From a virus: a DNA stretch of 33,766 nucleotides. A program made the translations under genes and the position numbers. Position 1 is the first letter of the stretch. Each line of letters starts with the position of its first letter. The stretch spans positions 1 through 33,766 of the IMG/VR virus record IMGVR_UViG_3300032299_000948. The stretch is one strand, 5' to 3'. Below the pieces are notes generated by a model. The model worked only from the letters and a program-made list of their open reading frames with translations. It made no database searches and was not told the origin of the DNA. This document shows positions 3,833 through 22,257 of the stretch, one piece after another.

Positions 3833-4732
3833 TCAGGGCGCTGCCAGCTTGCGGAACGTGGGCAGGTAGAACGCCAGGCTGGCCGGCAGTGGCTTGCCAC
3901 CCTCCATGCGCCACCGCAGGTCGGCCTCGACCAGCGCGGCAAACTCCCCGCCGTCGACGCCGAGGGTGGTCAGCTCGGTGGCAGCTGCCTGGTCGTTCTC
4001 GTTGGTCACTGCTGCTCGTTTGCAAACATTTGTCCACAAGCTTCGATACACCAACAGATAGTTAACAGTAGTATTTATTAGTTCACTGGGTAGTTGGTGT
4101 GCTCCCTGCGGCACATTAGATGTGCTGCCTACAGCACATTGACCATCATCCTGATGTGCTGCTGGCGGCACACTTGCAGGTGAGTTATCCACAGGCCCGC
4201 TGGGTTTCTTCTGCCTCACTTTGTTGAGCAATTCGCGGCTGCGTTTGCGGCCTTCTTCCGGCGGCAGTGGCTTGCTTTCCATCTTGCGTTCCTCCCTCTT
4301 GAGGTGTGGTGGGGTGAGGTCTTCGTCGTTGTCTCGGTCTGAGGCGATGGCGATGGCGTCTCTGGGTTCTGGCGCGTCTTCCCTGCGCAGCACCTGGTAG
4401 CAGGTAGCGCGGGCTGCGACGCTGTTGCCGCGGCTGACCACGCGCAGGTAGTTGAGCTCGATCAGCTTCTGCACGGCGCGGTTCACGTTGGGTCTGGTCA
4501 TGTCGACCATCTGGCTGATGCGGTCCTGTCCTGGCCACGCCATGCCTGCCTTGTTGGCGAACGAGCAGATCGCCATCAGCACGCGGAACTCGCCGCCGGT
4601 GAGGCGGTTGTCTGAGATGGCGCGGAACACGCCGACGAAGATCTCGCGCCGGTCGGTCTGCTCCTGTTGCTGGATCTTGTGCTGCTTGGGCACCGTCCAC
4701 TGCGGGATCGGCGGAAGGTCATTCAGCATCAT
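3833..4732 (-). CDS. Lambda O-like replication initiator
   Basis: This 299-residue protein has an N-terminal winged-helix domain (about residues 30-115). FVGVFRAISDNRLTGGEF is followed by ICSFANKAGMAWPGQDRISQ and the recognition-helix region TRPNVNRAVQKLIELNYL, as in the DNA-binding domain of lambda O and related phage initiators. A charged linker follows. Residues about 180-231 are encoded by DNA carrying a DnaA box, three inverted repeats and an AT-rich stretch. In lambda, O binds iterons inside its own gene and recruits the helicase loader; the same layout is inferred here. The C-terminal part (LWTNVCKRAAV to the end) would contact replication partners. Two ATGs lie at 4732 and 4729. The start overlaps the winged-helix gene by 14 bp, suggesting coupled translation. 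Confidence 0.78.
   Translation of the reverse strand: MMLNDLPPIPQWTVPKQHKIQQQEQTDRREIFVGVFRAISDNRLTGGEFRVLMAICSFANKAGMAWPGQDRISQMVDMTRPNVNRAVQKLIELNYLRVVSRGNSVAARATCYQVLRREDAPEPRDAIAIASDRDNDEDLTPPHLKREERKMESKPLPPEEGRKRSRELLNKVRQKKPSGPVDNSPASVPPAAHQDDGQCAVGSTSNVPQGAHQLPSELINTTVNYLLVYRSLWTNVCKRAAVTNENDQAAATELTTLGVDGGEFAALVEADLRWRMEGGKPLPASLAFYLPTFRKLAAP
4030..4038 (+). promoter_or_regulatory. DnaA-box-like site (TTGTCCACA)
   Basis: This 9-mer differs from the strong DnaA box TTATCCACA at one base (G for A at position 3). It lies on the opposite side of the AT-rich stretch from the perfect box at 4185..4193, inside the initiator gene. Confidence 0.45.
4039..4096. promoter_or_regulatory. AT-rich stretch, candidate DNA-unwinding element
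   Basis: This segment (for example GTTAACAGTAGTATTTATTA) is clearly AT-richer than its surroundings. It lies between two DnaA-type boxes and beside three inverted repeats, as expected of the duplex-opening part of an origin. It still encodes initiator residues of about 212-231. Confidence 0.45.
4098..4173. repeat. Three related inverted repeats, candidate origin iterons
   Basis: Each unit contains TGTGC facing GCACA. Unit 1 is 4098..4115. Unit 2 is 4120..4139, with perfect 8-bp arms ATGTGCTG/CAGCACAT. Unit 3 is 4154..4173, with two arm mismatches. The centres are 23 and 34 bp apart, close to two and three helical turns, so bound proteins would sit on one face. They encode the low-complexity linker of the initiator (about residues 186-211), matching lambda's layout with iterons inside gene O. 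Confidence 0.75.
4185..4193 (+). promoter_or_regulatory. Perfect DnaA box (TTATCCACA)
   Basis: This exactly matches the high-affinity E. coli DnaA box. It lies 12 bp from the third inverted repeat, inside the initiator gene. With the repeats and AT-rich stretch it marks the probable replication origin and suggests use of host DnaA. Confidence 0.65.
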
Positions 4733-6104: not shown

Positions 6105-6283
6105 TTGCCCCCCAGCAGCTGCTGCAGGCGGGTGCCCAGCTCGCCGTAGCGCGGCTTGAGCTGCGCCCGGATGGCCTCGTCGACGATGGACGCACGGCTG
6201 CGCCGCTGATCCTCTGCAGCGCGGTCGAGCAGGGCGCGAGTGTCCTCGCGCAGCCGTACCAGGAAAGGTTTCGTGGAGTTCAT
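6101..6283 (-). CDS. Ribbon-helix-helix (Arc/CopG-like) regulator
   Basis: This 60-residue protein starts MNSTKPFLVRLREDTRALL, a short beta strand followed by helix. It continues AAEDQRRSRASIVDEAIRAQL, the second helix after a turn, as in Arc, MetJ and CopG dimers. It is the first gene of the leftward early arm, divergent from the serine recombinase, so it probably represses one or both arms by binding the 106-bp gap. The ATG at 6283 has AGGGG upstream; a longer in-frame start at 6409 would run through the palindrome and the opposite promoter region and is rejected. Confidence 0.75.
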   Translation of the reverse strand: MNSTKPFLVRLREDTRALLDRAAEDQRRSRASIVDEAIRAQLKPRYGELGTRLQQLLGGK

Positions 6284-6315
6284 TTGCCCCTGCGTAAAGA
6301 ATGCAAACGGGGGGT

Positions 6316-6345
6316 ATTGCACAACGATATCTTCTGTGGTGCAAT
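6316..6345. promoter_or_regulatory. 30-bp palindrome in the divergent early control region
   Basis: ATTGCAC (6316..6322) and GTGCAAT (6339..6345) are perfect 7-bp arms around 16 bp. On each strand TTGCAC and TGCAAT are 17 bp apart, like weak -35 and -10 boxes. The site lies between the RHH regulator and the serine recombinase. It could be the RHH operator, a pair of face-to-face promoters, or a crossover site for the recombinase. The sequence alone does not decide. Confidence 0.6.
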
Positions 6346-6389
6346 GTTCACACCAGCCAATTGAGAGCTGTACATCCAAGGAGATGCAG

Positions 6390-7064
6390 ATGGCACCCCA
6401 TAGCGGCAAGTTCGTCGCTTACTACCGCGTGTCGACCGGACGGCAAGGCAAGTCGGGTCTGGGCCTCGACGCCCAACGCGAGCGCGTCATGACGTATCTA
6501 AACGGTGGCAGCTGGTCGCTGGTTGGCGAGTTCACTGAGGTCGAGTCCGGCCGCATGAACGACCGCCCGGCGCTCGAGTCGGCAATCAAGCTGTGCAAGA
6601 AGGAGAAGGCCACGCTGGTGGTGGCCACGCTCGACCGCCTCACCCGCGACCTCGCGTTCGGCGCGATGCTGCTCAACGACCGGCAGGTCAAGTTCGTCTG
6701 CGCAGACTTCCCCGAGGCCAGCCGCGAGATGCTGCAGATGCGGATGGTGTTCGCCGAGTGGGAGGCCCGCAAGATCGGCGAGCGCACCAAGGTCGCATTG
6801 GCCGAGCTCAAGAAGAAGGGCAAGAAGCTGGGCTCGCCGGACCCGAAGAAGGGCAGCGTGGTGGGTATCGCCAAGCTGCAGGCGAAGGCCGACCGCTACG
6901 CCGACCGCGTGGGTCCGGTGGTGCGCGAGATCATCCGCAAGTCTGGCGCCACCACCCTGCGCGAGATTGCGGCCGCGCTGTCCGCCCGTGGCGTGCAGAC
7001 GCCACGCGGCAACAGCGAGTGGCACGCGTCGCAGGTCAGCAACCTGCTGAAGAGGATCAAGTGA
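6390..7064 (+). CDS. Serine recombinase (resolvase/invertase type)
   Basis: This 224-residue protein carries the serine recombinase catalytic domain. The nucleophile Ser15 lies in YYRVSTGRQ, followed by the conserved GLDAQR and the catalytic segment TLDRLTRD (about 80-87). The long helix AEWEARKIGERTKVAL follows. The C-terminal part (TTLREIAAALSARGVQTPRGNSE...) is a short helix-turn-helix DNA-binding region, so it is a small resolvase/invertase-like member, not a large serine integrase. It may resolve genome multimers, invert a segment or integrate. I see no attachment site or invertible segment. The second ATG (6390) is chosen: AAGGAG ends six bases before it, against zero before the ATG at 6384. 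It is the first gene of the rightward arm. Confidence 0.9.
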   Translation: MAPHSGKFVAYYRVSTGRQGKSGLGLDAQRERVMTYLNGGSWSLVGEFTEVESGRMNDRPALESAIKLCKKEKATLVVATLDRLTRDLAFGAMLLNDRQVKFVCADFPEASREMLQMRMVFAEWEARKIGERTKVALAELKKKGKKLGSPDPKKGSVVGIAKLQAKADRYADRVGPVVREIIRKSGATTLREIAAALSARGVQTPRGNSEWHASQVSNLLKRIK

Positions 7065-8258: not shown

Positions 8259-8587
8259 TGCAGCTCGCCCTCACGCCGCCGGTGCCTGTAACCGGCAAGC
8301 AGATCCGGGACGCTGTCCTGGACGATCTGGAGAAGCGCCGCTGGGCCTACATTAGCCAGGCCCGCCGCTTCGCCGCTGACTTCGCCCGCCGCTGGGGCGT
8401 GGTCAGCATCAACGACGTGCGCAATGGGTGCCCGCCGCCGGCCGACGTGCCGCCGGCTGCCCTTGGCGCCGTCTTCAAGGAACGCAATGTCTGGGAGGTG
8501 GTGAGCTTCACGCTGGCCAGCCATCCCGCCGCGCACGCCCGTGTCGTCCGCGTCTACAAGCTGAAAGGAGAACATCGTGGTCGGTAA
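8258..8587 (+). CDS. Hypothetical protein upstream of the exonuclease
   Basis: This 109-residue protein is helical and basic at its N-terminus (GKQIRDAVLDDLEKRRWAYI) and then contains RRFAADFARRWGVVSINDVR. Its middle and C-terminal parts (LGAVFKERNVWEVVSFTLAS) have a mixed alpha/beta look, with a possible small DNA-contact fold. The ATG overlaps the upstream stop as TGATG, and the end overlaps the exonuclease start by 11 bp. Its position, coupled to recombination genes, suggests an early DNA-related role. It is not a recognised family. Confidence 0.65.
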   Translation: MQLALTPPVPVTGKQIRDAVLDDLEKRRWAYISQARRFAADFARRWGVVSINDVRNGCPPPADVPPAALGAVFKERNVWEVVSFTLASHPAAHARVVRVYKLKGEHRGR

Positions 8588-9533
8588 GGTCACCCCTGAC
8601 ACCATCATGTCCGCCAGCCGCCTGCCGGCGCTGCTCGGTCACTCGAAGTACAGCACCCCCAACGACGAGCTGCAGCTGTCCATCGACGCCATCAACGGCA
8701 AAGCGCGGGACAACGACAGCAACGAGAGCATGGAGTGGGGCAACCGCCTCGAGGCCGTGATCCTGCGCGAGGCCGCCTGGCGGCTGCAGCTGGACGACCT
8801 CAACACCCACCACCCGTCGGCCTACTTCCACGCCAAGCTGGCGCTGGCGTGCAGCCTAGACGGCGAGGGGCTGGGCACCGGCCACATTGTCACCAGCGAC
8901 CCTGAGAAGGGCATCTACGTCGTCGGGCAGGACACCATCACGCTCGACGGCCCCGGCGTGCTCGAGGCCAAGGTGACCAAGACCCCGCCGGAGGAGGTGC
9001 CGGCCCTGTGGCGCGGCCCGATCCAGCTGCAGGCCCAGATGATGATCACCGACACCCGCTGGGGTGCCGTCTGCGTCCTGTACCAGGGCGTCGAGCTGCG
9101 GATCTTCCTGTTTGAGCGGCATGAGGCGACCGAGCAGGCCATCGCGGCCGCGGTCGACGACTTCCAGCGCCGTCTGAACGCGTACCAGGCGAGCGGCGAG
9201 ATCGAGTGGTACCCGCCGGCCAACAGCGCCGACCTCGACCGGATGTACGCCCACGCCGAGGAGCGGGTGGTCGAGCTGGGCGACGACGCCGGGACGCTGG
9301 CGCTGCGGATCCTCGAGGCCAAGGCCGACAAGGCGCGCTTGGAGGAGCTCATCAGCGCGTCCGAGATAGAGCTCAAGGGGCTGATGCGCGAGGCCGACAA
9401 GGCACGCGCCGGTCGGTTCCAGATCGCCTGGCCGATGCGCAATTACAAGGCGCAGCCGGAGAAGGTCGTGCCGGCAAAGCCCGCGTACTCGGTGCGGCAG
9501 TCGACGCTGTCGATCAAGGAGGTGGTCGCATGA
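8577..9533 (+). CDS. YqaJ/lambda-Exo-like recombination exonuclease
   Basis: This 318-residue protein has the lambda-exonuclease/YqaJ PDDEXK pattern: a Glu in WGNRLE (about 59), the Asp in CSLDGEG (95), GVLEAKVTK (E130-x-K132) and the downstream Gln-rich helix IQLQAQMM (150-156). Such enzymes digest one DNA strand from double-strand ends and hand the exposed strand to an annealing protein, here the RecT-like protein one gene downstream. The C-terminal helical extension (LEELISASEIELKGLMREADKARAG) is typical of phage versions. A GTG at 8577 has AAAGGAG six bases upstream. Confidence 0.88.
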   Translation: MVGKVTPDTIMSASRLPALLGHSKYSTPNDELQLSIDAINGKARDNDSNESMEWGNRLEAVILREAAWRLQLDDLNTHHPSAYFHAKLALACSLDGEGLGTGHIVTSDPEKGIYVVGQDTITLDGPGVLEAKVTKTPPEEVPALWRGPIQLQAQMMITDTRWGAVCVLYQGVELRIFLFERHEATEQAIAAAVDDFQRRLNAYQASGEIEWYPPANSADLDRMYAHAEERVVELGDDAGTLALRILEAKADKARLEELISASEIELKGLMREADKARAGRFQIAWPMRNYKAQPEKVVPAKPAYSVRQSTLSIKEVVA

Positions 9534-9727
9534 AGGGCGAGCTGGCTATCAAGGCGCGCACCGCCGCCGCCAAGGAGCTGCAGAAGCTGGTCTACCAGGT
9601 GCAGCAAAACCCCGAAAAAATTGTCACCCGCGACCAGGCGATGCGCGTCATCGACGGCATCTGCGAGGCGGTGATCACCACCATCGAAACGTATCTCGAG
9701 GAGCAGAACAATGCAGTTAACAACTAG
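9530..9727 (+). CDS. Small protein between exonuclease and RecT genes
   Basis: This 65-residue, mostly helical protein (KGELAIKARTAAAKELQKLVYQ...) has a second helix, RVIDGICEAVITTIETYLEEQ. It overlaps the exonuclease stop as ATGA and the RecT-like start by 17 bp. Its location inside the recombination pair suggests a helper or bridging protein. No family is recognised. Confidence 0.68.
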   Translation: MKGELAIKARTAAAKELQKLVYQVQQNPEKIVTRDQAMRVIDGICEAVITTIETYLEEQNNAVNN

Positions 9728-10739
9728 CAACCAGGGCTTCGCGCCCGTCACCCTGGACGAGGCCATGCGCTTCAGCGAGATGCTGGCCAAGTCGCAGATG
9801 GTGCCCAAGGCCTACCAGGGCCGGCCGGAGGACGTGCTCGTCGCCGTGCAGTGGGGCAAGGAGCTGGGCCTGGCGCCCCTGCAGGCGCTGCAGAACATCG
9901 CCTGCATCAACGGCAAGCCCAGCGTGTACGGCGACGCCGCGATGGCGCTGGTGCAAGCCAGTGCCGTCTGCGATGGCGTCGACGAGCACTTCGAGGGCGA
10001 GGAGGGCACCGGCAAGTACACCGCGGTGTGCATCGCCAAGCGCAAGGGGCGCAACCCCGTCATCGCCAGGTTCAGCGTTGAGGATGCCAAGCGCGCCGGC
10101 CTGTGGGGCAAGTCCGGCCCTTGGCAGGCCTACCCCAAGCGGATGCTGCAGATGCGCGCCCGCGGGTTTGCCCTGCGTGATGCTTACCCCGACGTGCTGA
10201 AGGGGCTGATCACGGCCGAGGAGGCCGCCGACTTCCCAGCCGAGCGCGACATCACCCCCAGCCGGCCGGCCAACCCGCTCGACGTGGTCAAGCCGGTCGC
10301 GCTGCCGGAGCCCGAGCTCGACGCCGGCGTGCCGGCCGAGGTCATGCCGCCGGTCGAGATCTACGAGGCCGAGCTCGATCAGGTGCGCGAGGACGTGCGC
10401 AAGATGGCGGAGCGGGTCATCGACTTCGAGGACGCCCAGCGCGGCGAGGACGTGTCGCCGTCCAACAGCTACCCGCTCATGGTGCCGGGCAAGTCCGAGG
10501 CCGAGGCCGTCTACGCCACGCTTGAGGAGTGGGAGCAGGCCTACGAGGAGATGGCCGAGCGCGTCGCCAACAGCAAGCGGTGGGAGCCGCGCCAGCGCAT
10601 GACCAAGCTGCGCGAGCTCAAGGAGGTCAACGAGACGCTGATCCAGGAGCAGGGCGGCCCGACCCTGGTCGCCAACCTGCAGCGCGGATACCAGAAGCGC
10701 CTCGGCGTGCTCGGCCTCATGACGAAGGGGGCGGCATGA
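9711..10739 (+). CDS. recT: RecT-family single-strand annealing protein
   Basis: This 342-residue protein matches the RecT-type annealing family. An N-terminal helix with LDEAMRFSEMLAKSQMVP is followed by RPEDVLVAVQWGKELGLAPLQALQNIACINGKPSVYGDAAMALV, then WGKSGPWQAYPKRMLQMRARGFALRDAYPDVLKGLITAEEA, which is strongly characteristic. The last third is acidic and variable. RecT coats single-stranded DNA made by the exonuclease and anneals it to a complementary strand, supporting phage recombination and mosaicism. It overlaps genes on both sides in one rightward operon. Confidence 0.88.
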   Translation: MQLTTSNQGFAPVTLDEAMRFSEMLAKSQMVPKAYQGRPEDVLVAVQWGKELGLAPLQALQNIACINGKPSVYGDAAMALVQASAVCDGVDEHFEGEEGTGKYTAVCIAKRKGRNPVIARFSVEDAKRAGLWGKSGPWQAYPKRMLQMRARGFALRDAYPDVLKGLITAEEAADFPAERDITPSRPANPLDVVKPVALPEPELDAGVPAEVMPPVEIYEAELDQVREDVRKMAERVIDFEDAQRGEDVSPSNSYPLMVPGKSEAEAVYATLEEWEQAYEEMAERVANSKRWEPRQRMTKLRELKEVNETLIQEQGGPTLVANLQRGYQKRLGVLGLMTKGAA

Positions 10740-12281: not shown

Positions 12282-13250
12282 TCACACCTCCAAAAGCTTG
12301 CCGCGAAAGTAGAGCAGGCCGTCCTCCACCACCTGCGCCAGCTCGGGCGGCATGAGGTAGCCATTCATGAACGTGAGCACAGCGAACCCGCTGCGCCAGT
12401 TGCGCGGGCCGTCCTCGAGGTAGCCAAACTGCGGGCCCCACACGTCGGCCATCGTCCCGGTGTCGACCCCGTAGATCACGCCGCCGTTGGTCAGCGCCAT
12501 CGTCGTGCGCGGCGTCACTCTCAGGTTGTGCAGGTGCCCGGTCACCGTGCTGATCTGCGCGTCGCCGGTGTTGTTCCAGGTCGCGTGGATGCCGTTCTTG
12601 ATGCGGTGCTTGATGACGGTGTGGTCGTTCACGTTGATCGCCCAGCACGCCTTCCAGCGCGGCAGGTGGTCGGAGAGCGCCATGCCGAACACGCCCTCGT
12701 ACTCCGGCGCCTGTGTGGCGAGCAGGGCGTCATATCTGAGGTCGTGGTTCCCCCAGGTGCGGATGCACTTCGCGTTGCCGGCCACCTTCTCGATCTCATG
12801 CAGGCGGTCCTGCACCGCCTCGAGCTCCTGCTTCACGGTCGGCCGAGACTCCCAGCCCCGGCGGGGGTGGCGGCTGTTGCTGGCGCCGTCGAACAGGTCG
12901 CCGTTCAGCACGACGTGGTTGGGCTTGAGCTCCTTCACCAGGCGCACGAACCCGCGGTGCGCGGTGGTGATCATGTCCGGCCAGTAGTGGCAGTCGCTGC
13001 CGACGATGATGCAGCCATCGTCTAGGCGCACCCGCATCGTGGTGTCTTCGCCGGGTCGCATCACATAGTTGGAGGTCGGCAGCTCGGGCCGGTTGACCGC
13101 GGTCAGCGCGATGTCGTGGCTTTTCTCGATGTCGCGTCGCCGCCGGTGCGCCGCTCGCTCGGTGATGCCAACCTCTTCAGACAAAGCACGCGCACCGCCA
13201 ACGCGGCGCCAGATTTCGATGAACTCCTCATCGGACACTCGGGCTGCCAT
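12282..13250 (-). CDS. Calcineurin-like metallophosphoesterase with N-terminal HTH segment
   Basis: This 322-residue protein has the binuclear metal sites of calcineurin-type phosphoesterases in order: GSDCHYWP (D/H, about 84-91), NGDLFDG (about 116-122), TWGNHDLRYD (about 165-174) and TGHLHNLR (about 238-245). The first 45 residues form a helical, basic segment (EEFIEIWRRVGGARALSEEVGITERAAHRRRRDIEKS) resembling a helix-turn-helix, so the enzyme may act on DNA or nucleotides. Related genes occur near lysis or structural genes of other phages, but the substrate is not known to me. GGGGAG precedes the ATG at 13250. Confidence 0.85.
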   Translation of the reverse strand: MAARVSDEEFIEIWRRVGGARALSEEVGITERAAHRRRRDIEKSHDIALTAVNRPELPTSNYVMRPGEDTTMRVRLDDGCIIVGSDCHYWPDMITTAHRGFVRLVKELKPNHVVLNGDLFDGASNSRHPRRGWESRPTVKQELEAVQDRLHEIEKVAGNAKCIRTWGNHDLRYDALLATQAPEYEGVFGMALSDHLPRWKACWAINVNDHTVIKHRIKNGIHATWNNTGDAQISTVTGHLHNLRVTPRTTMALTNGGVIYGVDTGTMADVWGPQFGYLEDGPRNWRSGFAVLTFMNGYLMPPELAQVVEDGLLYFRGKLLEV

Positions 13251-13557: not shown

Positions 13558-13926
13558 TTAAACCGGGGGTTGGATCTCCACCCAGCTGGTGGTCGACTCG
13601 TCCCAGCCGTACCGCTTGCCGTCGTCCGGCATCGGCACAGGGGCTTGCCACTGGCAGGTGTCTTCGACCAGCACCCAGCTGGGGTACGGCTGCGGCGGGA
13701 TGAACGCATCGCGACCGGCGTCGTAGGTGTACCCGATGCCGGCATAGTTCTTTCTCATGCTGGCGTTGTAGCTGGTCTGCTTCCAGGTGCCGCCGAACAG
13801 GCGTGCGCAGAACCCAGCGCCAACCGCCTCGCTCTCGACGCCGTTGGCATCGAGGCACTCGTTGTTGTGGACGACGATGACTTGCGTCACCACGTTGTTC
13901 TCATCAAGCTGTGCAAAGTGCGCCAT
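13558..13926 (-). CDS. Conserved small phage protein (MAHFAQLD type)
   Basis: This 122-residue protein begins MAHFAQLDENNVVTQVIVVHNNE. It has many aromatic residues (GGTWKQTSYNAS, NYAGIGYTYDAGRDAFIPPQPYPSW) and a proline/tryptophan-rich end. Similar short proteins are common in environmental tailed-phage genomes near tail-fibre genes, and I know them only as hypothetical. Its place right after the adhesin paralogues suggests a tail or fibre accessory or assembly role (inference). GAGG lies about 7 bases before the ATG. Confidence 0.7.
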   Translation of the reverse strand: MAHFAQLDENNVVTQVIVVHNNECLDANGVESEAVGAGFCARLFGGTWKQTSYNASMRKNYAGIGYTYDAGRDAFIPPQPYPSWVLVEDTCQWQAPVPMPDDGKRYGWDESTTSWVEIQPPV

Positions 13927-13934
13927 GTTGTGCC

Positions 13935-14870
13935 TCAGTAAGTAATTGAGCCAGAACCAGTAAATGTGTAGATGGTGTTTCCGCCGCTGGTAGTAACCGT
14001 AGGCGAACCAGTAGTAGAAGCTGCTGCACGCGGCGCTGAAATAATAACTACCCCAGAACCGCCATTACCGCCGGGACCAGAAGGGGCTTGTGCAGAGTAG
14101 CAACCGCCACCACCCCCACCGCCGGTATTGGCCGTTCCTGATGTAGCGTTAGGTGCGCCAGAATAGTTACCCCCGCCATTACCACCACCGCCTGCACCGC
14201 CCACACCAACTACTGCGTTGTCGTACGTGCCTCCACCGCCGCCACCAGCGTAAGTGACTGAGGAACCGGTAATTGAACTCGCCAGACCTACCCCGCCTGC
14301 CGCGCCTGTAGAAGTGGCTTTCCCGTTTGCGCCAACACCGCCTGCACCACCGCCTCCGCCGTGCGCATAATTCGGGGTTCCTGAAGTACCGGTTCCGCCA
14401 CTACCACCAGCATTACCTTGTCCAGATGTGGCTGCTCCACCAGCACCTCCCGCAGCATTGTTTGAGTTTGCGCCACCACCACCAGAACCGCCTGAACTAC
14501 CAGCATTGCCGTTATAGTTTGACGGGCCTTGTCTTGTCCCGCCACCACCGCCACCGGTTGAAGTAATGCTGGAAAAAACCGAATTACTACCGTTTACACC
14601 ATTAACAGCATTATCTGAGACGGTAGCTCCATTGCCCCCGCCACCAACCGTAACTGTATAAGAAGTTCCCGGTGTCAACGTGCTGGTGCCAGTCAACAAA
14701 CCACCAGCCCCACCCCCACCACCAAACGACCCGCCGCCGCCACCACCCGCAACAACTAGATATGTCACAGATACCGCAAGGGTCGGCCAGTTGTCGCCTT
14801 GCTCGGCACGCTTCTGTTTCTTCAGGGTCCATACCCCAGAAGCGCTAGCGGTAGAAGGGAATTGAGCCAT
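13935..14870 (-). CDS. Glycine-rich adhesin-like protein 3 (third of a tandem triplet)
   Basis: This 311-residue protein begins MAQFPSTASASGVWTLKKQKR and ends in a conserved module (TTGSPTVTTSGG...YTFTGSGSITY). Between them lie long glycine tracts (GGGGGGSFGGGGGAGG and others) separated by Ala/Ser/Asn/Tyr spacers. Such tracts recall the polyglycine-II layers of receptor-binding tips, such as the gp38 adhesins of T-even-like phages, so it may bind host receptors at the fibre end. Terminal modules are shared with the next two genes, showing tandem duplication. No ribosome-binding site precedes the ATG, which lies two bases after the upstream stop, so translation is probably coupled. Confidence 0.72.
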   Translation of the reverse strand: MAQFPSTASASGVWTLKKQKRAEQGDNWPTLAVSVTYLVVAGGGGGGSFGGGGGAGGLLTGTSTLTPGTSYTVTVGGGGNGATVSDNAVNGVNGSNSVFSSITSTGGGGGGTRQGPSNYNGNAGSSGGSGGGGANSNNAAGGAGGAATSGQGNAGGSGGTGTSGTPNYAHGGGGGAGGVGANGKATSTGAAGGVGLASSITGSSVTYAGGGGGGTYDNAVVGVGGAGGGGNGGGNYSGAPNATSGTANTGGGGGGGCYSAQAPSGPGGNGGSGVVIISAPRAAASTTGSPTVTTSGGNTIYTFTGSGSITY

Positions 14871-14872
14871 GA

Positions 14873-15778
14873 TTAGAAAGTAATCGAGCCAGAGCCAGTA
14901 AACTTATATTCACGGAAACCGCCGGAAACCGTGATCGTTGGAGATCCTGTTGTAGCTACTGCCGCAGCAAACGTGTCTGCGTATCGAATGATCACAATGC
15001 CTGAACCGCCAGCGCCACCGACACCCGGACCTCCGTTTGCAAAGTATGACCCGCCACCACCGCCACCGGTATTTGTTGTGCCTGCCGTGCCGTTGCCAGA
15101 ACCCGAAGCCCCAGCGCCACCGCCCCCAGACCCACCCGCCGCACCACCTCCGCCGGGACCGCCGCCGCCAGCAAAATAGCCCGCTGGAGATCCGCCAGAA
15201 AATTGCGAATACTGCCTCCCAATCCCCCCGGGTGTATTAGAACTACCGCCAACAGCGCCAGCCCCGCCACCGCCACCTGCCGAGCTACCACCAGCATTAC
15301 CATATCCAGTAGCGCCGCCCGAATTACCTTGTGTTGCTGCGCCGCCAGATCCATAGGTATCAAAGCCTGATCCGCCACCACCTGAGCCGCCTGAAGCACC
15401 AGCGGGCGTCATACCACCTCTTGGTCCGCCGCCAGCGCGACCACCGCCATTAGCAGTACAGCTAATTGCGACGCTATTACTACCGTTTGAACCAACGGCA
15501 GACCCAGCTCCAGCAGCGCCCCCACCACCAACCGTTATGGTGTAAGCAGAACCCGACGATACAGCTATTGATGCGCCATACAGCAAGCCACCAGCACCGC
15601 CGCCGCCAGCAAGAGAATCATTTGTGCCCCCTCCAGCGCCACCACCAGCAACTACAAGAAGCTCTACAGCGGTAGGTGCAACAGCAATTATTGGCCAGTC
15701 ACCGCCAGCTTTTGCACGATATTGGTCCGTAAGGTCCCAAACATCTGATGCGCTAGTTGTAGATGGAAATTGAGCCAT
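14873..15778 (-). CDS. Glycine-rich adhesin-like protein 2 (middle of a tandem triplet)
   Basis: This 301-residue protein is paralogous to its neighbours. It begins MAQFPSTTSASDVWDLTDQYR and ends ATTGSPTITVSGG...YKFTGSGSITF. The middle has poly-glycine blocks (GGGGAGGLLYG, GGGRAGGGPRGG, GGGGPGGGGAAGG) with different spacer residues from the other two, so the putative receptor-facing part has diverged while the ends stayed alike. An AT-richer composition than adjacent structural genes suggests separate ancestry. The ATG lies two bases after the previous stop and has no Shine-Dalgarno sequence. Confidence 0.72.
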   Translation of the reverse strand: MAQFPSTTSASDVWDLTDQYRAKAGGDWPIIAVAPTAVELLVVAGGGAGGGTNDSLAGGGGAGGLLYGASIAVSSGSAYTITVGGGGAAGAGSAVGSNGSNSVAISCTANGGGRAGGGPRGGMTPAGASGGSGGGGSGFDTYGSGGAATQGNSGGATGYGNAGGSSAGGGGGAGAVGGSSNTPGGIGRQYSQFSGGSPAGYFAGGGGPGGGGAAGGSGGGGAGASGSGNGTAGTTNTGGGGGGSYFANGGPGVGGAGGSGIVIIRYADTFAAAVATTGSPTITVSGGFREYKFTGSGSITF

Positions 15779-15780
15779 AG

Positions 15781-16731
15781 TTAGAACGTAATTGACCCAG
15801 AGCCGGTCCAGCGGTAAATACGATACCCGCCAGTGACAGTGATTGTAGGAGAGCCAGTAGTTGCCGATGCAGCGGGATAAGAATCAGGATAACGGACTAT
15901 GACTACACCCGAACCGCCAGATCCTGATGACCACGTTTGTGCCCCTGCATAGCCAGCTGCACCACCACCGCCACCAGTATTTGCGGTTCCACTACCGCCC
16001 TCTCCCGAACCGCCCCCATAACCGCCGCCACCTGCTCCGCCAGAGCAAATCTCCGCGCCGAAATAACGTGAACCGCCTCCACCACCGGCATACGTTACTG
16101 ATGAGCCGGAAATAGAAGATGCGGTTCCATCGCCGCCTTTGCCGGGATTTGGTGATGCATTGCCGTTATTGCCAACCGCGCCAGCACCCCCGCCACCACC
16201 AGAATAATCAGTAAAGCCAGAACATGAACCACCGTTGTTACCTTGGCTAGGTGAAGTAGAAGGAGTGTTTCCAGCTCCCCCATTCCCATTTTCGCACCAT
16301 GAACCACCACCAGAGCCGCCGGGCCCGCCATCTAATACTCGACCAGATGGAATGTTGTTATATGACCCACCATAACCGCCGCCCGCAGACGTAATAGTAG
16401 AAAACACACTGTTATTACCCGGATTGCCGGGAAGCCACGAAGTAGTTCCGTTTGATACACCTGCGCCACCAGCACCAATTGTCACGGTATAAGTAGTGCC
16501 TGCCACGACTGCGAGCCCTACTGCAGTTCTAAAACCGCCTGCACCGCCACCACCGCCGCCAGCTCTTGGAAACGCGTTTGATCCACCCCCTGAGCCACCG
16601 CCACCGACCACAAGGTATTCCACTGATGGCGGTGCCGTGATCACTACCGGCCAATTGCTCCCCATCACCGCGTCACGCTGGTCCGCCAGGTTGTAAAAAC
16701 CCGGAGCGGATGTGCTGGACGGAATGGGCAT
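15781..16731 (-). CDS. Glycine-rich adhesin-like protein 1 (first of a tandem triplet)
   Basis: This 316-residue protein begins MPIPSSTSAPGFYNLADQRDA, the most diverged N-terminus of the three, and ends in SATTGSPTITVTGG...YRWTGSGSITF. Glycine tracts (GGGGSGGGS, GGGGGGAGGF, GGGGGAGAVG) alternate with Ser/Asn/Tyr segments, including SVTYAGGGGG, a motif also present in paralogue 3. It follows the small virion protein with a one-base overlap (TAATG). A host-recognition role at the tail fibre is inferred from composition and position. Confidence 0.72.
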   Translation of the reverse strand: MPIPSSTSAPGFYNLADQRDAVMGSNWPVVITAPPSVEYLVVGGGGSGGGSNAFPRAGGGGGGAGGFRTAVGLAVVAGTTYTVTIGAGGAGVSNGTTSWLPGNPGNNSVFSTITSAGGGYGGSYNNIPSGRVLDGGPGGSGGGSWCENGNGGAGNTPSTSPSQGNNGGSCSGFTDYSGGGGGAGAVGNNGNASPNPGKGGDGTASSISGSSVTYAGGGGGSRYFGAEICSGGAGGGGYGGGSGEGGSGTANTGGGGGAAGYAGAQTWSSGSGGSGVVIVRYPDSYPAASATTGSPTITVTGGYRIYRWTGSGSITF

Positions 16732-17084
16732 TAGCTAATCTCTTCGTAGCTGCAGACAGCTTCAAGGTCGCTGGCCGCGTTGGCGGTCAGGCGCAGGCTG
16801 TCGCCTTCCTCGAGGTAGATCGACTTGCTGATCACGTCGAGCGTGGCATCCGCCGGGACCACCACCGTGTTGGCAATGCGATAGGCCGTCGAACTGCGGA
16901 ACAGATCGACCGTGATCTCGGCGTTGTTGGTGCCGTCCACGTTGCTGACGTACAGCGCGTTGACCTTGAGCACCTTGTTGCTGCCCGAGCTGTTGGTGAC
17001 GATCGCCGTGGCCGAGGTGCCGACCGCCTGCACGGCAGTCTTCCCGGTGATGGTGGCGACGTTGACTACGTTGGGAGCTGCCAT
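16731..17084 (-). CDS. Small virion-associated protein downstream of tail fibre
   Basis: This 117-residue protein (MAAPNVVNVATITGKTAVQAVGTSATAIVTN...) is beta-rich, with short hydrophobic strands alternating with Asn/Asp/Ser turns (VLKVNALYVSNVDGTNNAEITVDLF). Similar short proteins occur between tail genes in environmental podovirus-like and myovirus-like genomes, and I know them only as conserved hypothetical or structural. A fibre or baseplate-like accessory is likely. GGAGG lies six bases before the ATG at 17084 and overlaps the end of the fibre gene. Confidence 0.7.
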   Translation of the reverse strand: MAAPNVVNVATITGKTAVQAVGTSATAIVTNSSGSNKVLKVNALYVSNVDGTNNAEITVDLFRSSTAYRIANTVVVPADATLDVISKSIYLEEGDSLRLTANAASDLEAVCSYEEIS

Positions 17085-17086
17085 GA

Positions 17087-18922
17087 TTAACCTCCGAACA
17101 CGATGGCCATCGCGATGGCCTTACCAGTTGTGACGCCCGTGCTGGGCGTGCTCCAAGAAAGGGTGCCGCTGCCGTTCGTCTGCAGCACCTGCCCGTTCGT
17201 CCCGTCCGCGCCTGGCAAGGTCCATGTCACGTTGGACGTGATGGACGCGGGCGCCTGGAACTCGACGTAGTTGGCGCCGTTGGCGGTGGCTTCATTGAGC
17301 CGGACCTTGCCGCCCACGCTGGCGGTGGGAATGGCGCCGTCGGCCTTGGCGTCCAAGGTGGTTTGCAAACCGGTGATGTCTCCGACAGCAATCGAGCCCA
17401 CCGCCTTGAACGACAGGATGCGCACCTCGTCGTTGAGCTGCAGCGCCGAGTTGAACGTGATTGTGGTGCCGTTGGTGGCGACGATGTCCGCCGCGTCGAG
17501 CAGCACGCCGTTGACCCACACGAAGGTGTAGCCGATGCGGTATCCGCCGCTGAACGTGTAGCTGGTCTGGCCCGCGGTCGCGGCAAAGCTGCGCTCCGAC
17601 AGCGTGTCAGGCGACGCGGCCTGCGCCTGCCAGGCGCTGCCGGTCCAGACTCGCATCTCGGCGGCCACGGTGTTGAAGTAGATTGCGCCGGTGATGAGCG
17701 CGCTGCCGTCGTTGTCGACCGTCGGGTTGCTCGACTTCGCGCCCAGGTAGCGGTCGTCGAAGCTGTCGTACGCGGACTCAGCAGCGGTCTGCGCAGCCTG
17801 GGCAGCGGTGGCCGCGTTGCTCGCCGTCGTGGCGCTCGAGCTGGCAGCAGAGGCCGAGCTCGAAGCATTCGATGCAGACGTCGATGCCGCGCTTGCCGAG
17901 CTGGCTGCGTTGGATGCTGACGTCGACGCGGCCGATGCCGAGCTCGACGCGTTCGACGCGGAGGTGCTGGCCGCCGACGCGCTCGAGGAGGCGTTGCTGG
18001 CGGACGTCGATGCCGAGCTGGCACTGTTAGCCGCGTTCGTGGCCTGGGTGCTCGCCGTCGATGCGTGGCCGGCCGCGGTGGTCGCGGAGTTGGCAGCGTT
18101 GGTGGCTGATGTGCTTGCGTTGCTGGCGCTGGTCGACGCATTCGAGGCCGACGTGCTTGCGGCGCTGGCAGAGCTCGAAGCGTTCGAGGCCGAGGTTGAT
18201 GCGTTGCTGGCCGAGGTCGACGCGGCAGAAGCAGACGAAGCTGCATTAGAGGCCGACGTTGCAGCAGATGCGGCATCAACCAGCAGTGCCCACTTGGCCG
18301 AATCAGCGTTAGTCCCAATCGGCAAAGATCCGCTTGATGTGTGCTGCACGATGCACTGCCAGATGTTGCTGTTCGTCGTGTCCTTGACGATGTCTCTGAT
18401 GTAGTAGAGCGTGCTCGCCGCCCAGTTGCCGCGGTTGGTTCCTAGCGTGTCAGCGATTGTCGGGTTGCCGTTCGCGTCAAACCCAAGCGCCTTGTTGGCG
18501 CGCACGCTCGCACGGGGCAGCGTCATGTTGATGCTGGTCGGGTCGGTCTGCGGCGCCTGCAGCGCACGGTTGACCGCCTCGGCATTCTGCTGCGCGAAGA
18601 TGGTCAGCGAGTCGAGTTCGTCGTTGACGGTGTTGGCGAAGAAGTCGCCGCCGGTCACGAAGTCGCTGGTGCGCTGGATGGCGCGTGCGCCGACGATGGC
18701 GATCTGCGTGGCGCCGGTGGGCGCGGCCGTCAACGTGACGGACCCGGTGCCGTTCGCGTTGATGGTGACCGTGTAGTTGGTCGTCAGCGTGAGCAGCGTG
18801 TCGTCGCGGTACACCGCGAGGTCGGTCGCCGCCAGGATCTCGAAGCTGAAGTTGTACGGGCCGGTGCCGCTGGCCGCGTACACCACCCGCCTCGGTACAT
18901 TGCTGATCGCGTATGTGGCCAT
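17087..18922 (-). CDS. T7 gp17-type tail fibre with long Ala/Ser repeat shaft
   Basis: This 611-residue protein has the T7 tail-fibre N-terminal attachment domain (about 1-125: RRVVYAASGTGPYNFSF..., TSDFVTGGDFFANTVNDELDSLTIF...). This part docks to the tail tube complex. After a linker, residues about 215-395 are near-perfect repeats of Ser/Ala/Asn units (STSASNAS, SSASAAS), a low-complexity trimeric shaft. A beta-rich part follows (TFSGGYRIGYTFVWVNGVLL..., LQTTLDAKADGAIP...), and the protein ends MAIVFGG. No carbohydrate-binding or enzymatic tip is recognised, so the glycine-rich proteins downstream may supply the tip. GGAGG lies eight bases before the ATG. Confidence 0.88.
   Translation of the reverse strand: MATYAISNVPRRVVYAASGTGPYNFSFEILAATDLAVYRDDTLLTLTTNYTVTINANGTGSVTLTAAPTGATQIAIVGARAIQRTSDFVTGGDFFANTVNDELDSLTIFAQQNAEAVNRALQAPQTDPTSINMTLPRASVRANKALGFDANGNPTIADTLGTNRGNWAASTLYYIRDIVKDTTNSNIWQCIVQHTSSGSLPIGTNADSAKWALLVDAASAATSASNAASSASAASTSASNASTSASNASSSASAASTSASNASTSASNASTSATNAANSATTAAGHASTASTQATNAANSASSASTSASNASSSASAASTSASNASSSASAASTSASNAASSASAASTSASNASSSASAASSSATTASNAATAAQAAQTAAESAYDSFDDRYLGAKSSNPTVDNDGSALITGAIYFNTVAAEMRVWTGSAWQAQAASPDTLSERSFAATAGQTSYTFSGGYRIGYTFVWVNGVLLDAADIVATNGTTITFNSALQLNDEVRILSFKAVGSIAVGDITGLQTTLDAKADGAIPTASVGGKVRLNEATANGANYVEFQAPASITSNVTWTLPGADGTNGQVLQTNGSGTLSWSTPSTGVTTGKAIAMAIVFGG
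17740..18290. repeat. In-frame degenerate repeat array in the tail-fibre gene
   Basis: Short degenerate repeats encode the Ala/Ser/Asn shaft of the fibre. Units such as those encoding STSASNAS recur many times with variable synonymous codons. Slippage or unequal recombination could change shaft length. The repeats are coding and without spacers, so this is not a CRISPR array. Confidence 0.8.
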
Positions 18923-18944: not shown

Positions 18945-18972
18945 ATTGTACTGCGCGGTTATGGTTTGTAAA
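18945..18972 (-). promoter_or_regulatory. Sigma-70-like promoter for tail-fibre gene (copy F of late element)
   Basis: On the minus strand TTTACA (18967..18972) is 16 bp upstream of TACAAT (18945..18950), matching consensus at 5/6 and 5/6. The -10 lies about 25 bases before the fibre start codon, within the 36-bp gap after the ejection-protein gene. The -10 and what follows also fit the recurring late element (11/16 bases match copy A). It is the best promoter of that set. Confidence 0.65.
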
Positions 18973-21763
18973 ACAAGCCGTTAGCCTTCCGGATTTCCTG
19001 CAGGTCCATGACCTTGATGCCGAGCTCCGGGTCTTCCTGCATGAGCTGCTCGCGTGACGCCTTCATCAGCTTGTCGTGCAAGCTGCGCACGGTGGTCTGC
19101 TGGTCATCCAGCGTCAGCAGGTCGAACCCCGGCGTGCGCATGAGCTCGAGCAGCTCGCCCTTGGCGTTGAGCTCCTTGCCGTAGATGGTGAGCAGTCGGT
19201 TGTACTGGCGGGCATCCATGTCGACCCCGTCGATCTTGCGCTCGGGCAGCGCCACCGGCGAGCCCATCCGCACCAGCAGGTCGTCCACCTCGGAGAACTG
19301 AATCGGCGACACGCGGGTCGGCAGCACCATCTCGTACAGGTTGCCGTGGCCCTGGAGGATGGGGTCGCCCCACAGGTTGAGCTGCGGCGGCAGATCCTCC
19401 GAGAACCAGGGCAGGCGCGAGCGGTACTTGTTGAACGCCTCGTAGAACCCCTTGATGCCGCTCGGCGCGTCCGGCGTCATGCGGTAGTCGCGCTGGGTCG
19501 GGTCGCGCATCCGCTCGATGCCGGCGACCAGCGAGTTGTACGCGCCCGCCGGCGAGCCGCCGATGGCGAACCCGCCGTACTGCTTGGCCAGGTTGTCGAT
19601 CACCTTGTTGACGTCGGCCGGCCCGTAGTCGCCGCCCAGCAGCTTGGCGAAGTCGGCAATGCCCTGCAGATAGGGCTGTTCCTTCATGTACTCGTACAGA
19701 CCCTGGACGCCGCCCAGGAACACCTCCTGGACGCGGCTGTCGTCGTACTCCATCTGCGCGTACTCGGCATAGTCCGCGGCGATGGCGAGCAGGGCGCTGA
19801 TCGGCTCCATGCCGGCATAGCTGTAGTAGCTGTCGCCCACCTTGATGCTGTACGGCTGCCAGCCGTCACGCATGAGCGCCTCGCGGTCGGCCTTGCGTGC
19901 GGGTCCGCTGCCGGTGATCTTGCCCTCGGCGGCGTAGCTGGCGAACGTGGCGAGCACGCCCGAGCCCAGCGTGACCTTGGCCAGCGCCATGTCGCGGTAG
20001 ACGCCACCGGCCAGCAGGTCGTCGCGGAAGCGGCCGGACAGCGGCGCGAACGGCGTGCGCTCCAGCACCTCGAGTCCGATGTTGGCCGGGGTGCGGAAGA
20101 AGGGCACCATCACCTTGCCGATGGGGTGGTTGAACGCGCCCTGCAGCTTCTGCAGCCCAGGCGGCAGATCCATCGTGAAGGTGCCGCGGCGGGCGTAGTT
20201 GAGCGCAGCCTCGTCGATGTCAGACGGCGGCGACTCCATGATGCTGCGCGCCTCGCTCTCGGCTCGGGCAATCGCGGTGCCTTCGTCCGCGCCCTGGTCA
20301 AGCGCGTCGCGGTACACGCTCTTGCTGCGGCGGATGGCCTGCGCGTTGAGCTCCATGCGGTACAGCACGCCCTTAAAGAACTCGTCCTCGGTCATCAGCG
20401 CACGGCCCGGCAGCGTGATGGCGTTGCCGTAGAAGTCGATGGCCTTGCCCAGCCACTTGTCCTGCTCGATGCCGAACGCAGCCGAGCTGATGGGCGGCGC
20501 GTCAGTCCCGCGGGTGAGCTCGATTTTGGACAGCGGGTCGTTGGGCGCGTTGTTCTTCCACGCACGGGACGCCAGCTGGAAGCCCTCGTCGAGACCGTTG
20601 CGCAGCGACTGCATCATCGTCAGCGCCTCGTCGAGCTCAATCTTCTCCTTCTCGGAGCCAGGCACCAGGCCGCGACGCAGGCGGGCGGGGAGGGCGGCGC
20701 TGTAGAAACTGCCGATCAGCCGCTCCGGGATTTGGTACAGGCCGAACAGCGAGTTGGACACGATGTTCTTGGCGTGGCTCACGGGCGACGACAGCAGGCC
20801 GTTGATCCAGGTCGTGAACCACACGTCCTTGACGCCGGACATCATCGACTTCTCGACCAGCTGGTTTCTGGCCGCACGCGACTCCAGCGAGAGGTAGCTG
20901 CGCGCCATGTCCTGCAGCGCGCCTTCGCCGCCGAACTCGTCGAGCGTGCGGCGGATGATGTCGGCATTGCCCTGGCGCGGGATGCGGAACACCGCCAGCG
21001 CACGCGCCGTTTCGGTCTGTACGTTCTTCACGCCACGCTGCACCATCCCGTGCAGGGCAATCTGCTGGCGCAGCTTGAGCTTGTCGACGTCGGTCGCGGT
21101 GCCGTTCGCCACCATCTTGAACAGGCGGTCCAGCTCGTTGGCCGAGCTCTCGAGCACCTCGAGCGCCTTGTAGGTGTCGACCGCGCTCGGCAGCATCTTG
21201 CCGTCCTGCGGGTTCACCAGGCGCGCCAGAAACGCCTCGTTGATGCCGGACTCGGCGGCCTTGGCCTTGATCTCCTCGAACGTGACGCGCTTGGTCTTGA
21301 TGCCCAGCGCATCCGCCACGCCGCCCACGATGGCGGCCGCGTCGTCGGTCTGGTACCGCTCCAGGTTGAACGGCTCGTTCGGCGTGCCGCCCGGCTTGCC
21401 CATCGTGTTGCCGGTGGCGCGGCGCTGCTGCGCGGCCTGCTGCACGTTGTCGACCAGCGTCTGCGGCGCCTCGGGCACGACCGTGAAGTTGCCGACCCTG
21501 CCGGCCTGGGGCAGGGCGTCCGGCGCTGCGCCGGCTGGCTGCGGCACCACCTCGCGGCCGGCCTTGCGCACAGCCTTGCCAACAATGCCACGCAGGGCAG
21601 ACCCGAAGCCGGCCACCTGCACCGGCTCCATCGCAGGGTCGCCTTCTTCGACTACGGTCGGGGCCGCCGTCTCCTCGGTCGACACGGGGTCGGCCTCCGG
21701 CAGCGGCTGGTCAGGAAGGATGGAGTCGAGACGCTGCTCGAGCGGATTCTGGTTGATGGCCAT
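18959..21763 (-). CDS. Large internal virion/ejection protein (T7 gp16-like by position)
   Basis: This 934-residue protein is the last and largest of the core/ejection genes, the place of T7 gp16. The N-terminus is acidic and proline-rich (about 1-50). A possible amphipathic, Gly-containing helix follows (VAGFGSALRGIVGKAVRKAG). The long body is helical, with hydrophobic patches (SSPVSHAKNIVSNSLFGLYQ, LGSGVLATFASYAAEG). I see no lytic transglycosylase signature, unlike T7 gp16 (1318 residues). Such proteins leave the capsid and help form the channel for DNA entry. The ATG at 21763 overlaps the upstream stop (TGATG); GTG 21766 is an alternative. Confidence 0.75.
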   Translation of the reverse strand: MAINQNPLEQRLDSILPDQPLPEADPVSTEETAAPTVVEEGDPAMEPVQVAGFGSALRGIVGKAVRKAGREVVPQPAGAAPDALPQAGRVGNFTVVPEAPQTLVDNVQQAAQQRRATGNTMGKPGGTPNEPFNLERYQTDDAAAIVGGVADALGIKTKRVTFEEIKAKAAESGINEAFLARLVNPQDGKMLPSAVDTYKALEVLESSANELDRLFKMVANGTATDVDKLKLRQQIALHGMVQRGVKNVQTETARALAVFRIPRQGNADIIRRTLDEFGGEGALQDMARSYLSLESRAARNQLVEKSMMSGVKDVWFTTWINGLLSSPVSHAKNIVSNSLFGLYQIPERLIGSFYSAALPARLRRGLVPGSEKEKIELDEALTMMQSLRNGLDEGFQLASRAWKNNAPNDPLSKIELTRGTDAPPISSAAFGIEQDKWLGKAIDFYGNAITLPGRALMTEDEFFKGVLYRMELNAQAIRRSKSVYRDALDQGADEGTAIARAESEARSIMESPPSDIDEAALNYARRGTFTMDLPPGLQKLQGAFNHPIGKVMVPFFRTPANIGLEVLERTPFAPLSGRFRDDLLAGGVYRDMALAKVTLGSGVLATFASYAAEGKITGSGPARKADREALMRDGWQPYSIKVGDSYYSYAGMEPISALLAIAADYAEYAQMEYDDSRVQEVFLGGVQGLYEYMKEQPYLQGIADFAKLLGGDYGPADVNKVIDNLAKQYGGFAIGGSPAGAYNSLVAGIERMRDPTQRDYRMTPDAPSGIKGFYEAFNKYRSRLPWFSEDLPPQLNLWGDPILQGHGNLYEMVLPTRVSPIQFSEVDDLLVRMGSPVALPERKIDGVDMDARQYNRLLTIYGKELNAKGELLELMRTPGFDLLTLDDQQTTVRSLHDKLMKASREQLMQEDPELGIKVMDLQEIRKANGLFYKP

Positions 21764-22257
21764 CACTTCGCCCCCTTGATAGCAGCACGCGTTGCCTTGC
21801 CGACCGCTCTGGCCGGCTTCACATAAGCCCCAGGCGCAAGGAACTCGCCCAAGGTCTCGTACGGGTTCTTGCCATCACCGACTTTGCCGACGTTCTCGTC
21901 TAGCCACTTCTTGACGTCCTCGGTGGTGGGCAGCTCGGTGTCCTCTTTCAAGGTTGCGCCCATCACGTTGAGAACCATACGGGCCACGCCCTCAAGGTCA
22001 CCGGGCAGCCCGACATACCCCTGCACCGCACCCTTGACCGTGGCGGCACCCATGTCTGCCAGCCCGCCCAGCGGGGTGGCCACGTCGGAAACAAACTCGC
22101 CGACCGACTGCGGGCCTTGCCCGCGGCTCGCGCCGCCGCCACCCATTGCCAGCATCACGGGTTGCTCGGCCGGCGTCTCCGGCTCAACCGGCTGGTCTGG
22201 AAATTGGACAGCGGTCAGGGTGTTGAGGTAGCGGTCCTCGACCGGGCTCAGTGCCAT
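21763..22257 (-). CDS. Small virion protein with glycine-rich amphipathic segment, putative ejection protein
   Basis: This 164-residue protein begins MALSPVEDRYLNTLT, has a proline/glutamate stretch and a Gly-rich patch (AMGGGGASRGQG). The central segment ATPLGGLADMGAATVKGAVQGYVGLPGDLEGVARMV looks like a glycine-zipper membrane-active helix. The C-terminus is basic (ARAVGKATRAAIKGAK). It lies between the two large ejection-type proteins and is translationally coupled to both, so a role in membrane penetration is likely but inferred. Confidence 0.68.
   Translation of the reverse strand: MALSPVEDRYLNTLTAVQFPDQPVEPETPAEQPVMLAMGGGGASRGQGPQSVGEFVSDVATPLGGLADMGAATVKGAVQGYVGLPGDLEGVARMVLNVMGATLKEDTELPTTEDVKKWLDENVGKVGDGKNPYETLGEFLAPGAYVKPARAVGKATRAAIKGAK

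Follow-up and report, generated by a model that had tools for sequence, protein, structure and literature searches.

Glycine-rich gene triplet of the window

The window analysed here is the whole 33.8-kb IMG/VR record IMGVR_UViG_3300032299_000948 (33,766 nucleotides), from a virus of bacteria. It contains three consecutive glycine-rich genes, referred to as adhesins A, B and C, which probably form a multi-adhesin receptor-binding cassette with slot-specific tags and exchangeable middles. The gene order on the minus strand is D, F (the tail fibre), protein 5, adhesins A, B and C, protein 6 and M. The placement of the triplet after the tail fibre, pointed out in an earlier sequence-only reading of this DNA, holds and is the distal, receptor-binding place. 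The same reading described consecutive genes of 311, 301 and 316 residues; all three are complete minus-strand open reading frames (ORFs), at the positions listed below, with stop-to-start gaps of 2 nucleotides. E-values are per search throughout.

15781..16731, minus strand: adhesin A (P0001), 316 amino acids (aa); alpha tag SAPGFYNLADQRDAVMGSNWP, Gly-rich domain and C-module; PF21722, E=1e-26
14873..15778, minus strand: adhesin B (P0002), 301 aa; beta tag SASDVWDLTDQYRAKAGGDWP, Gly-rich domain and C-module; PF21722, E=1e-16
13935..14870, minus strand: adhesin C (P0003), 311 aa; gamma tag SASGVWTLKKQKRAEQGDNWP, Gly-rich domain and C-module; PF21722, E=2e-19
16642..16731, minus strand: alpha N-tag of adhesin A, residues ~1-30, from the listing of N-termini and from typing
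15784..15879, minus strand: C-module of adhesin A (TTGSPTITVTGGYRIYRWTGSGSITF and neighbours), from the C profile
14876-14971 (B) and 13938-14033 (C), minus strand: C-module counterparts, from the C profile

The three proteins have a glycine content of 30-33% and a mutual identity of 47-53%. Their scores against Gly_rich_2 (PF21722) are 94.6 (A), 61.8 (B) and 71.0 (C) bits, far above the curated cut-off of 24.3, and all three also match phrog_2295, which is annotated in PHROG as of unknown function. Many relatives, named 'glycine-rich domain-containing', occur in uncultured phages. Scans with A, B and C individually found no near copies of the middles of the window's own proteins, and a tblastn search of A against named phages, with the low-complexity filter on, returned C-module matches only, in two unannotated records. 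By their sequences, proteins of the A/B/C type are very probably adhesins.

Related loci (L004-L446) were collected from viral contigs, the queries being proteins 6, 5, F, A, B, C and D and an alignment of protein 5; one scan of genome contigs gave four further loci. Profiles of the N- and C-terminal ends, built from A, B and C, had 146 and 265 matches, respectively, in the first 243 related loci, so that the end modules exceed chance.

Three types of N-terminal tag

The sequence-only reading had proposed modules shared at both termini. This stands for the C-module, which is common to the three proteins; the N-terminal end instead consists of three distinct tag types. From a listing of N-termini, the alpha tag has the consensus AYGxWxLxxQRDAVMGxNWP, the beta tag SDVWxLxDxYxAxAGxNWP and the gamma tag GIWTLKKQKRAxQGxNWP. 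Typing used seeds taken from one array (L136) and was applied to 24 triplets from viral contigs. The tags are short. The window was typed with margins of +34 (A, alpha), +28 (B, beta) and +25 (C, gamma).

The best N-tag matches between two triplets are one-to-one in 143 of the 276 triplet pairs, against 30 +- 8 (maximum 59) when tags are shuffled. The corresponding figures are 22/276 for the middles and 10/171 for the C-modules. Complete sets of alpha, beta and gamma are present in 19 of the 24 triplets, whereas 20,000 shuffles gave a mean of 5.4 and a maximum of 14. A coarse control for relatedness, in which contigs sharing DNA were collapsed at three thresholds and the seed cluster was left out, retained complete sets in 7/9, 11/16 (3.5 expected) and 13/18 triplets (P 5e-4, 1.4e-4 and <2e-5). 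Clustering of the arrays by the identity of their Gly-rich proteins was dropped, as glycine merged nearly all of them, and clusters based on DNA were used in its place.

The order of the types varies between triplets (abg, gba, agb and bag). Between phages, the tags of same-type genes are 0.59 identical, against 0.45 for different types, whereas the values are 0.44 and 0.44 for the middles and 0.53 and 0.54 for the C-modules. There is no type signal in the middles or the C-modules. The N-termini are thus conserved per slot across phages while the receptor-domain region varies, which is the pattern of complexes with several slot-specific receptor-binding proteins (RBPs). The tags are also found on LamG lectin domains (PF13385; L429, L105 and L134). 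From these comparisons, the N-terminal end is best read as a slot tag and the C-terminal end as a common module, the two having different jobs.

On contigs that may be fragments, the number of contiguous tagged genes after protein 5 was one in 30 arrays, two in 10 and three in 24 of the first sample, and never more than three. A second sample had 13 arrays of one gene and seven of two. In two apparent alpha and beta doublets the gamma gene lies at a greater distance downstream, behind gene 6 in L429 and beyond a gap in L277. Triplets also lie on contigs of 50-105 kb (L103, L139, L142 and L274), lengths too great for T7-like genomes, and the cassette would therefore not be restricted to the kind of phage in the window.

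A recurring heterotypic tag pair is shared by the doublets L094, L097, L115, L259 and L447, the last of which lies in a Comamonadaceae metagenome-assembled genome; the pair was seen again in the second sample. L011, L020 and L408 form another kind of doublet with a heterotypic tag pair of its own. These pairs suggest further slot systems beyond alpha, beta and gamma. No description of such tags was found in the open-access literature searched, most subscription papers being outside that search.

Exchange behind the tag and turnover of the cassette

Conserved ends with exchangeable middles, as put forward from the sequence alone, are borne out by an interior swap in L149 that maps to within a few bases. 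This contig is 99.1% identical to L152 across a 6.1-kb stretch that takes in copy 1 and reaches through the copy-2 tag. From a point within 6119-6128 on, copy 2 follows copy 1 of L020 instead, and it returns at 6843-6852. The swapped stretch is identical to L020 at 450/451 and 113/113 positions, and beyond it 68/68 positions are identical to L152. The breakpoints lie right after the tag and inside the C-module, so the middle entered behind a kept tag and ahead of a kept C-terminus. L020 differs in its tag, and its protein 5 is only 43% identical to that of the window. A systematic scan of the loci gave no second clear interior swap.

The sequence-only reading had also proposed that about 20 bp of similar DNA at the 3' ends serve as recombination handles. 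The 20-mers at 13942-13961, 14880-14899 and 15788-15807 are present, are identical at 17-18 of 20 positions and encode the conserved peptide TGSGSIT. At identical residues, the codons of the window's C-modules agree in 9/24, 10/20 and 9/21 cases, intermediate between the backgrounds within arrays (0.45) and between phages (0.37); the similarity of the 3' DNA is therefore mostly expected from the conserved peptide. The downstream breakpoint of L149 falls ~67-75 bp before the stop, at TTGSPT. The swap thus broke inside the C-module but not at the named 20 bp, and the N-terminal ends are three tag types, probably slot-specific, rather than a single module or a plain recombination handle. The synonymous-codon identity of C-modules is 0.453 within arrays and 0.376 between phages (P 7e-8), which is consistent with occasional conversion there.

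Gain and loss of cassette members, likewise anticipated, were encountered as a whole-copy difference between L151 (two copies) and L137 (one copy) and in the triplet at L133:5996-8660. Copies 2 and 3 of the latter are 80% identical and have the same gamma tag, with no beta, the total still being three; they are a recent duplication.

The expectation that the cassette varies more than other tail genes also agrees with the nearest relatives, whose identity to the window is 90-98% in M and 78-85% in the fibre and which carry a different cassette. L317 is identical to the window at 98% in M, 89% in D and 78% in F; another Gly-rich protein and two other genes replace the stretch from protein 5 to protein 6. 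L164 has M at 90%, F at 85% and protein 6 at 92% identity, with a single untagged Gly-rich protein and without protein 5. In L317 the Gly-rich protein in the same place (L317:14815-15624) has 269 aa and matches PF21722, has neither tag nor C-module, and is followed by two small uncharacterised genes.

The GC content at third codon positions (GC3) is 0.38-0.41 in A, B and C, while the other genes of the window that were tested lie at 0.78-0.94. Low GC3 was rejected as proof of recent import, as it is also low in the Gly-rich genes of the high-GC relatives L164 (0.32 against 0.72-0.81) and L317 (0.43 against 0.90-0.92). The GC3 of Gly-rich genes tracks that of their flanks (r=0.87), and as a sign of import it may be taken as weak evidence at most. 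Recurrent import could account for the low values, as could a constraint on the codons used in Gly-rich genes.

Predicted fold and partner genes

The AlphaFold2 (AF2) model of adhesin A has a predicted local distance difference test (pLDDT) score of 88 and a predicted template modelling score of 0.86, with little regular secondary structure. Its first 30 residues have a pLDDT of ~48-57 and one short helix (residues 15-22), which would fit a segment that becomes ordered upon binding. A Foldseek comparison with the Protein Data Bank (PDB) gave its best matches among phage tail proteins, namely the tail tip of Bxb1 (9d93, E 2.6e-5) and the glycine-rich fibre of Pam3 (7ypx, E 3e-3). S16 gp38 is not among the Foldseek matches of adhesin A, and a phmmer search against the PDB gave no match at E<=10, a weak test for a Gly-rich sequence.

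The genes around the triplet are as follows.

18959-21766, minus strand: D, upstream of tail fibre F
17087..18922, minus strand: F (P0004), tail fibre, 611 aa; phrog_38058 / phrog_1640, tail fibre/tail protein
16731..17084, minus strand: protein 5 (P0005), 117 aa; phrog_1276; predicted beta-sandwich
13558..13926, minus strand: protein 6 (P0006), 122 aa; phrog_7759, E=1e-49, function not annotated
12282-13250, minus strand: M, metallophosphoesterase, downstream of protein 6

The tail fibre has a conserved N-terminus (residues 1-216), an Ala/Ser-rich, coiled-coil-like middle and a C-terminus that ends in GKAIAMAIVFGG. Across loci the order protein 5, Gly-rich genes, protein 6 recurs. Of the 47 loci drawn by gene 5, 42 have gene 6 after the last C-module gene, as do all 12 drawn by F or D, and among the best 80 matches in viral contigs the relatives of gene 6 mostly lie directly downstream of C-module proteins. 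Among loci drawn by gene 6, C-module proteins carry a tag in 7/9 cases with protein 5 upstream and in 1/45 otherwise (P=1.6e-6). This genetic linkage of tag and protein 5 indirectly supports a docking of the N-termini.

The AF2 model of protein 5 is a beta-sandwich (pLDDT 87). It has weak Foldseek matches to oligomeric jelly rolls, namely the tail needle knobs of Sf6 and HS1, the trimeric cement protein of KHP40 and ExsF in complex with an N-terminal anchor peptide. By sequence, protein 5 matched nothing in the PDB. Neither F nor protein 5 has a Pfam match at E<=0.1, no search having been aimed at T4gp10-like folds. The model suggests that protein 5 may be a hub or adaptor that binds the N-terminal peptides of the adhesins, and protein 6 is probably an assembly factor or a tip-associated protein.

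Other genes of the window

The structural genes form a T7-like podovirus set, comprising a head-tail adaptor, a T7 capsid assembly protein, a major head protein, tail tube proteins and an internal virion protein. The best named match of the internal virion protein (P0008) is in Methylophilales phage MEP301, at 32% identity. No T7-type polymerase was found among the window ORFs scanned. A replication-initiation O/DnaD-like protein (3833-4732, minus strand) and RecT/YqaJ are combined here with the T7-like virion genes.

The RecT and exonuclease pair named in the sequence-only reading lies on the plus strand within 8577-10739, as YqaJ (PF09588, 8577-9533) and RecT (PF03837, 9711-10739). A serine recombinase of the resolvase family (PF00239; 6240-7064, plus strand) adjoins these genes. 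An invertase switch of the Mu/P1 type was considered and rejected, as no inverted repeat pair flanks 13558-17084. The ORFs scanned gave no match to a reverse transcriptase of a diversity-generating retroelement, no search having been aimed at it. On the minus strand, 603-1595 encodes a 330-aa protein with an aspartyl/asparaginyl beta-hydroxylase domain (PF05118) at its C-terminal end, and 48-509, close to the contig end, a GNAT acetyltransferase (PF00583).

Relation to known receptor-binding systems

The tailspike proteins TSP1-TSP4 of Ackermannviridae phages such as CBA120 and SPTD1 have conserved, protein-specific N-termini that dock and assemble the complex, while their C-terminal receptor domains are swapped, and natural recombination right behind the N-terminus has been proposed (PMC9965104). 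The window cassette resembles them in grouping several putative RBPs in one gene cluster, and would also share docking N-termini and swapped receptor domains. It differs in that the Ackermannviridae proteins are trimeric tailspike enzymes with large multi-domain N-terminal heads (up to ~480 aa in TSP4), whereas here the tags have ~28 aa, Gly-rich or LamG domains serve as receptor domains, and the type order is variable.

In the podoviruses K1-5, KP32 and KP34, different RBPs are joined to an anchor or adaptor through short conserved peptides at their N-termini, a hepta- or undecapeptide in the case of K1-5 (PMC6872550). The common feature is a short N-terminal peptide, here a presumed docking tag. 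The adaptor of these phages is a T4gp10-like domain, whereas protein 5 is a small predicted beta-sandwich, and no recurrence of three tag types as a set in many phages has been described for them. By analogy, the principle of the cassette resembles those of Ackermannviridae and K1-5/KP32 with unrelated parts, and it is, as tested, a member of neither.

The distal domain of Pam3 gp24 is Gly-rich, its stems being conserved and its tip variable; the protein is found in virions and has been likened to S16 gp38 (PMC9608196). The triplet may resemble both, as well as the 'brush' domains of mycobacteriophages and LSH1, in its Gly-rich distal domain, GGGGxGG stems and variable tips. Proteins of the S16 gp38 and Pam3 gp24 kind are present as one adhesin per fibre, whereas the window has three paralogues with different tags. 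The definition of Gly_rich_2 (PF21722) and phrog_2295 covers the middle alone and includes neither the tags nor the C-module nor the arrangement in three slots.

Interpretation and rival explanations

The tags are likely to address slots. Each protein would start with a ~28-aa N-terminal docking tag, followed by a Gly-rich receptor-binding domain that can be exchanged and by the conserved C-module. The three tag types would be non-equivalent and one of each needed, placing up to three different adhesins at three distinct sites, most likely at the fibre end, on protein 5 or close to it. The C-module domains would probably fold or assemble with the aid of protein 6. Host range would change when homologous recombination, possibly driven by RecT, replaces the middle between its conserved flanks and leaves the tag in place, so that a new specificity enters an existing slot. 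Tag docking and its partner, the stoichiometry, the presence in virions and the binding of receptors are all deduced from sequence.

Several points weigh against this picture. The whole of it is based on sequence evidence and predicted structures. Five of the 24 triplets have incomplete sets (L132, L133, L134, L142 and L256), some with tags too diverged to type, and the ceiling of three genes derives from contigs drawn mostly via protein 5. The TM-scores of the Foldseek matches of adhesin A are low (0.35-0.52), and its single-chain model, in which the tag is of low confidence, is silent on docking. The one clear interior swap is a single event in related phages outside the lineage of the window.

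The genes could instead be ordinary paralogues, inherited vertically from an ancient triplication, with tag types that mark descent and have no meaning for assembly. Best matches do follow gene position (1-1, 2-2, 3-3) in several related phages, and many triplets come from related contigs. Yet the type order is shuffled among phages, the middles and C-modules lack a type signal, L149 kept its tag while the middle was replaced, and the same tags carry unrelated LamG domains. Descent alone would not preserve one tag of each kind amid exchange of the rest, and this explanation is unlikely. It is more doubtful still that the Gly-rich proteins are non-adhesive, serving as decoration, chaperone or low-complexity structural filler. 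The PHROG annotation leaves room for such a role and adhesion is a reading from sequence, but the position after the fibre, the extreme turnover between close relatives, the LamG lectin middles as alternatives and the likeness to Pam3 gp24 and phage tail-tip proteins speak for adhesion.

Expression switching, with a single gene of the three in use at any one time, through phase variation or recombination between copies, would accord with the resolvase-family recombinase at 6240-7064 and with the higher codon likeness of C-modules within arrays. It is very improbable, as the genes, only 2 nucleotides apart, look co-translated, lack flanking inverted repeats and are all intact, with different tags. 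Conceivably, the alpha, beta and gamma proteins form a single three-part tip, a heterotrimer, rather than occupying separate sites. The array sizes of both samples, never above three, the doublets with their own recurring tag pair (L094/L097/L115/L259/L447) and the resemblance of protein 5 to trimeric jelly rolls all point that way. Phages with one gene are common, however, so that three chains are not generally obligatory; adhesins of the S16 gp38 type act as single chains; and one array can hold LamG and Gly-rich middles that differ greatly in size. The heterotrimer is a possibility with the balance against it.

The slot-tagged cassette may also be taken further, as a tentative proposal. The alpha, beta and gamma tags would be an assembly code for one ordered hetero-oligomeric tip on a protein 5 hub, giving each virion three independently replaceable specificities, Gly-rich or lectin, in a plug-in system shared by several kinds of phage from fresh and marine water.

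If the slot-tagged reading is true, a short N-terminal tag sets the slot and any Gly-rich or lectin middle can be plugged in behind it. Complete alpha, beta and gamma sets would be predicted in virions, with the tag governing incorporation and the middle governing binding. It would supply an annotation rule by which thousands of 'glycine-rich domain-containing' phage proteins become slot-specific receptor-binding proteins, and it would explain how abundant environmental phages change their host range via small homologous exchanges.

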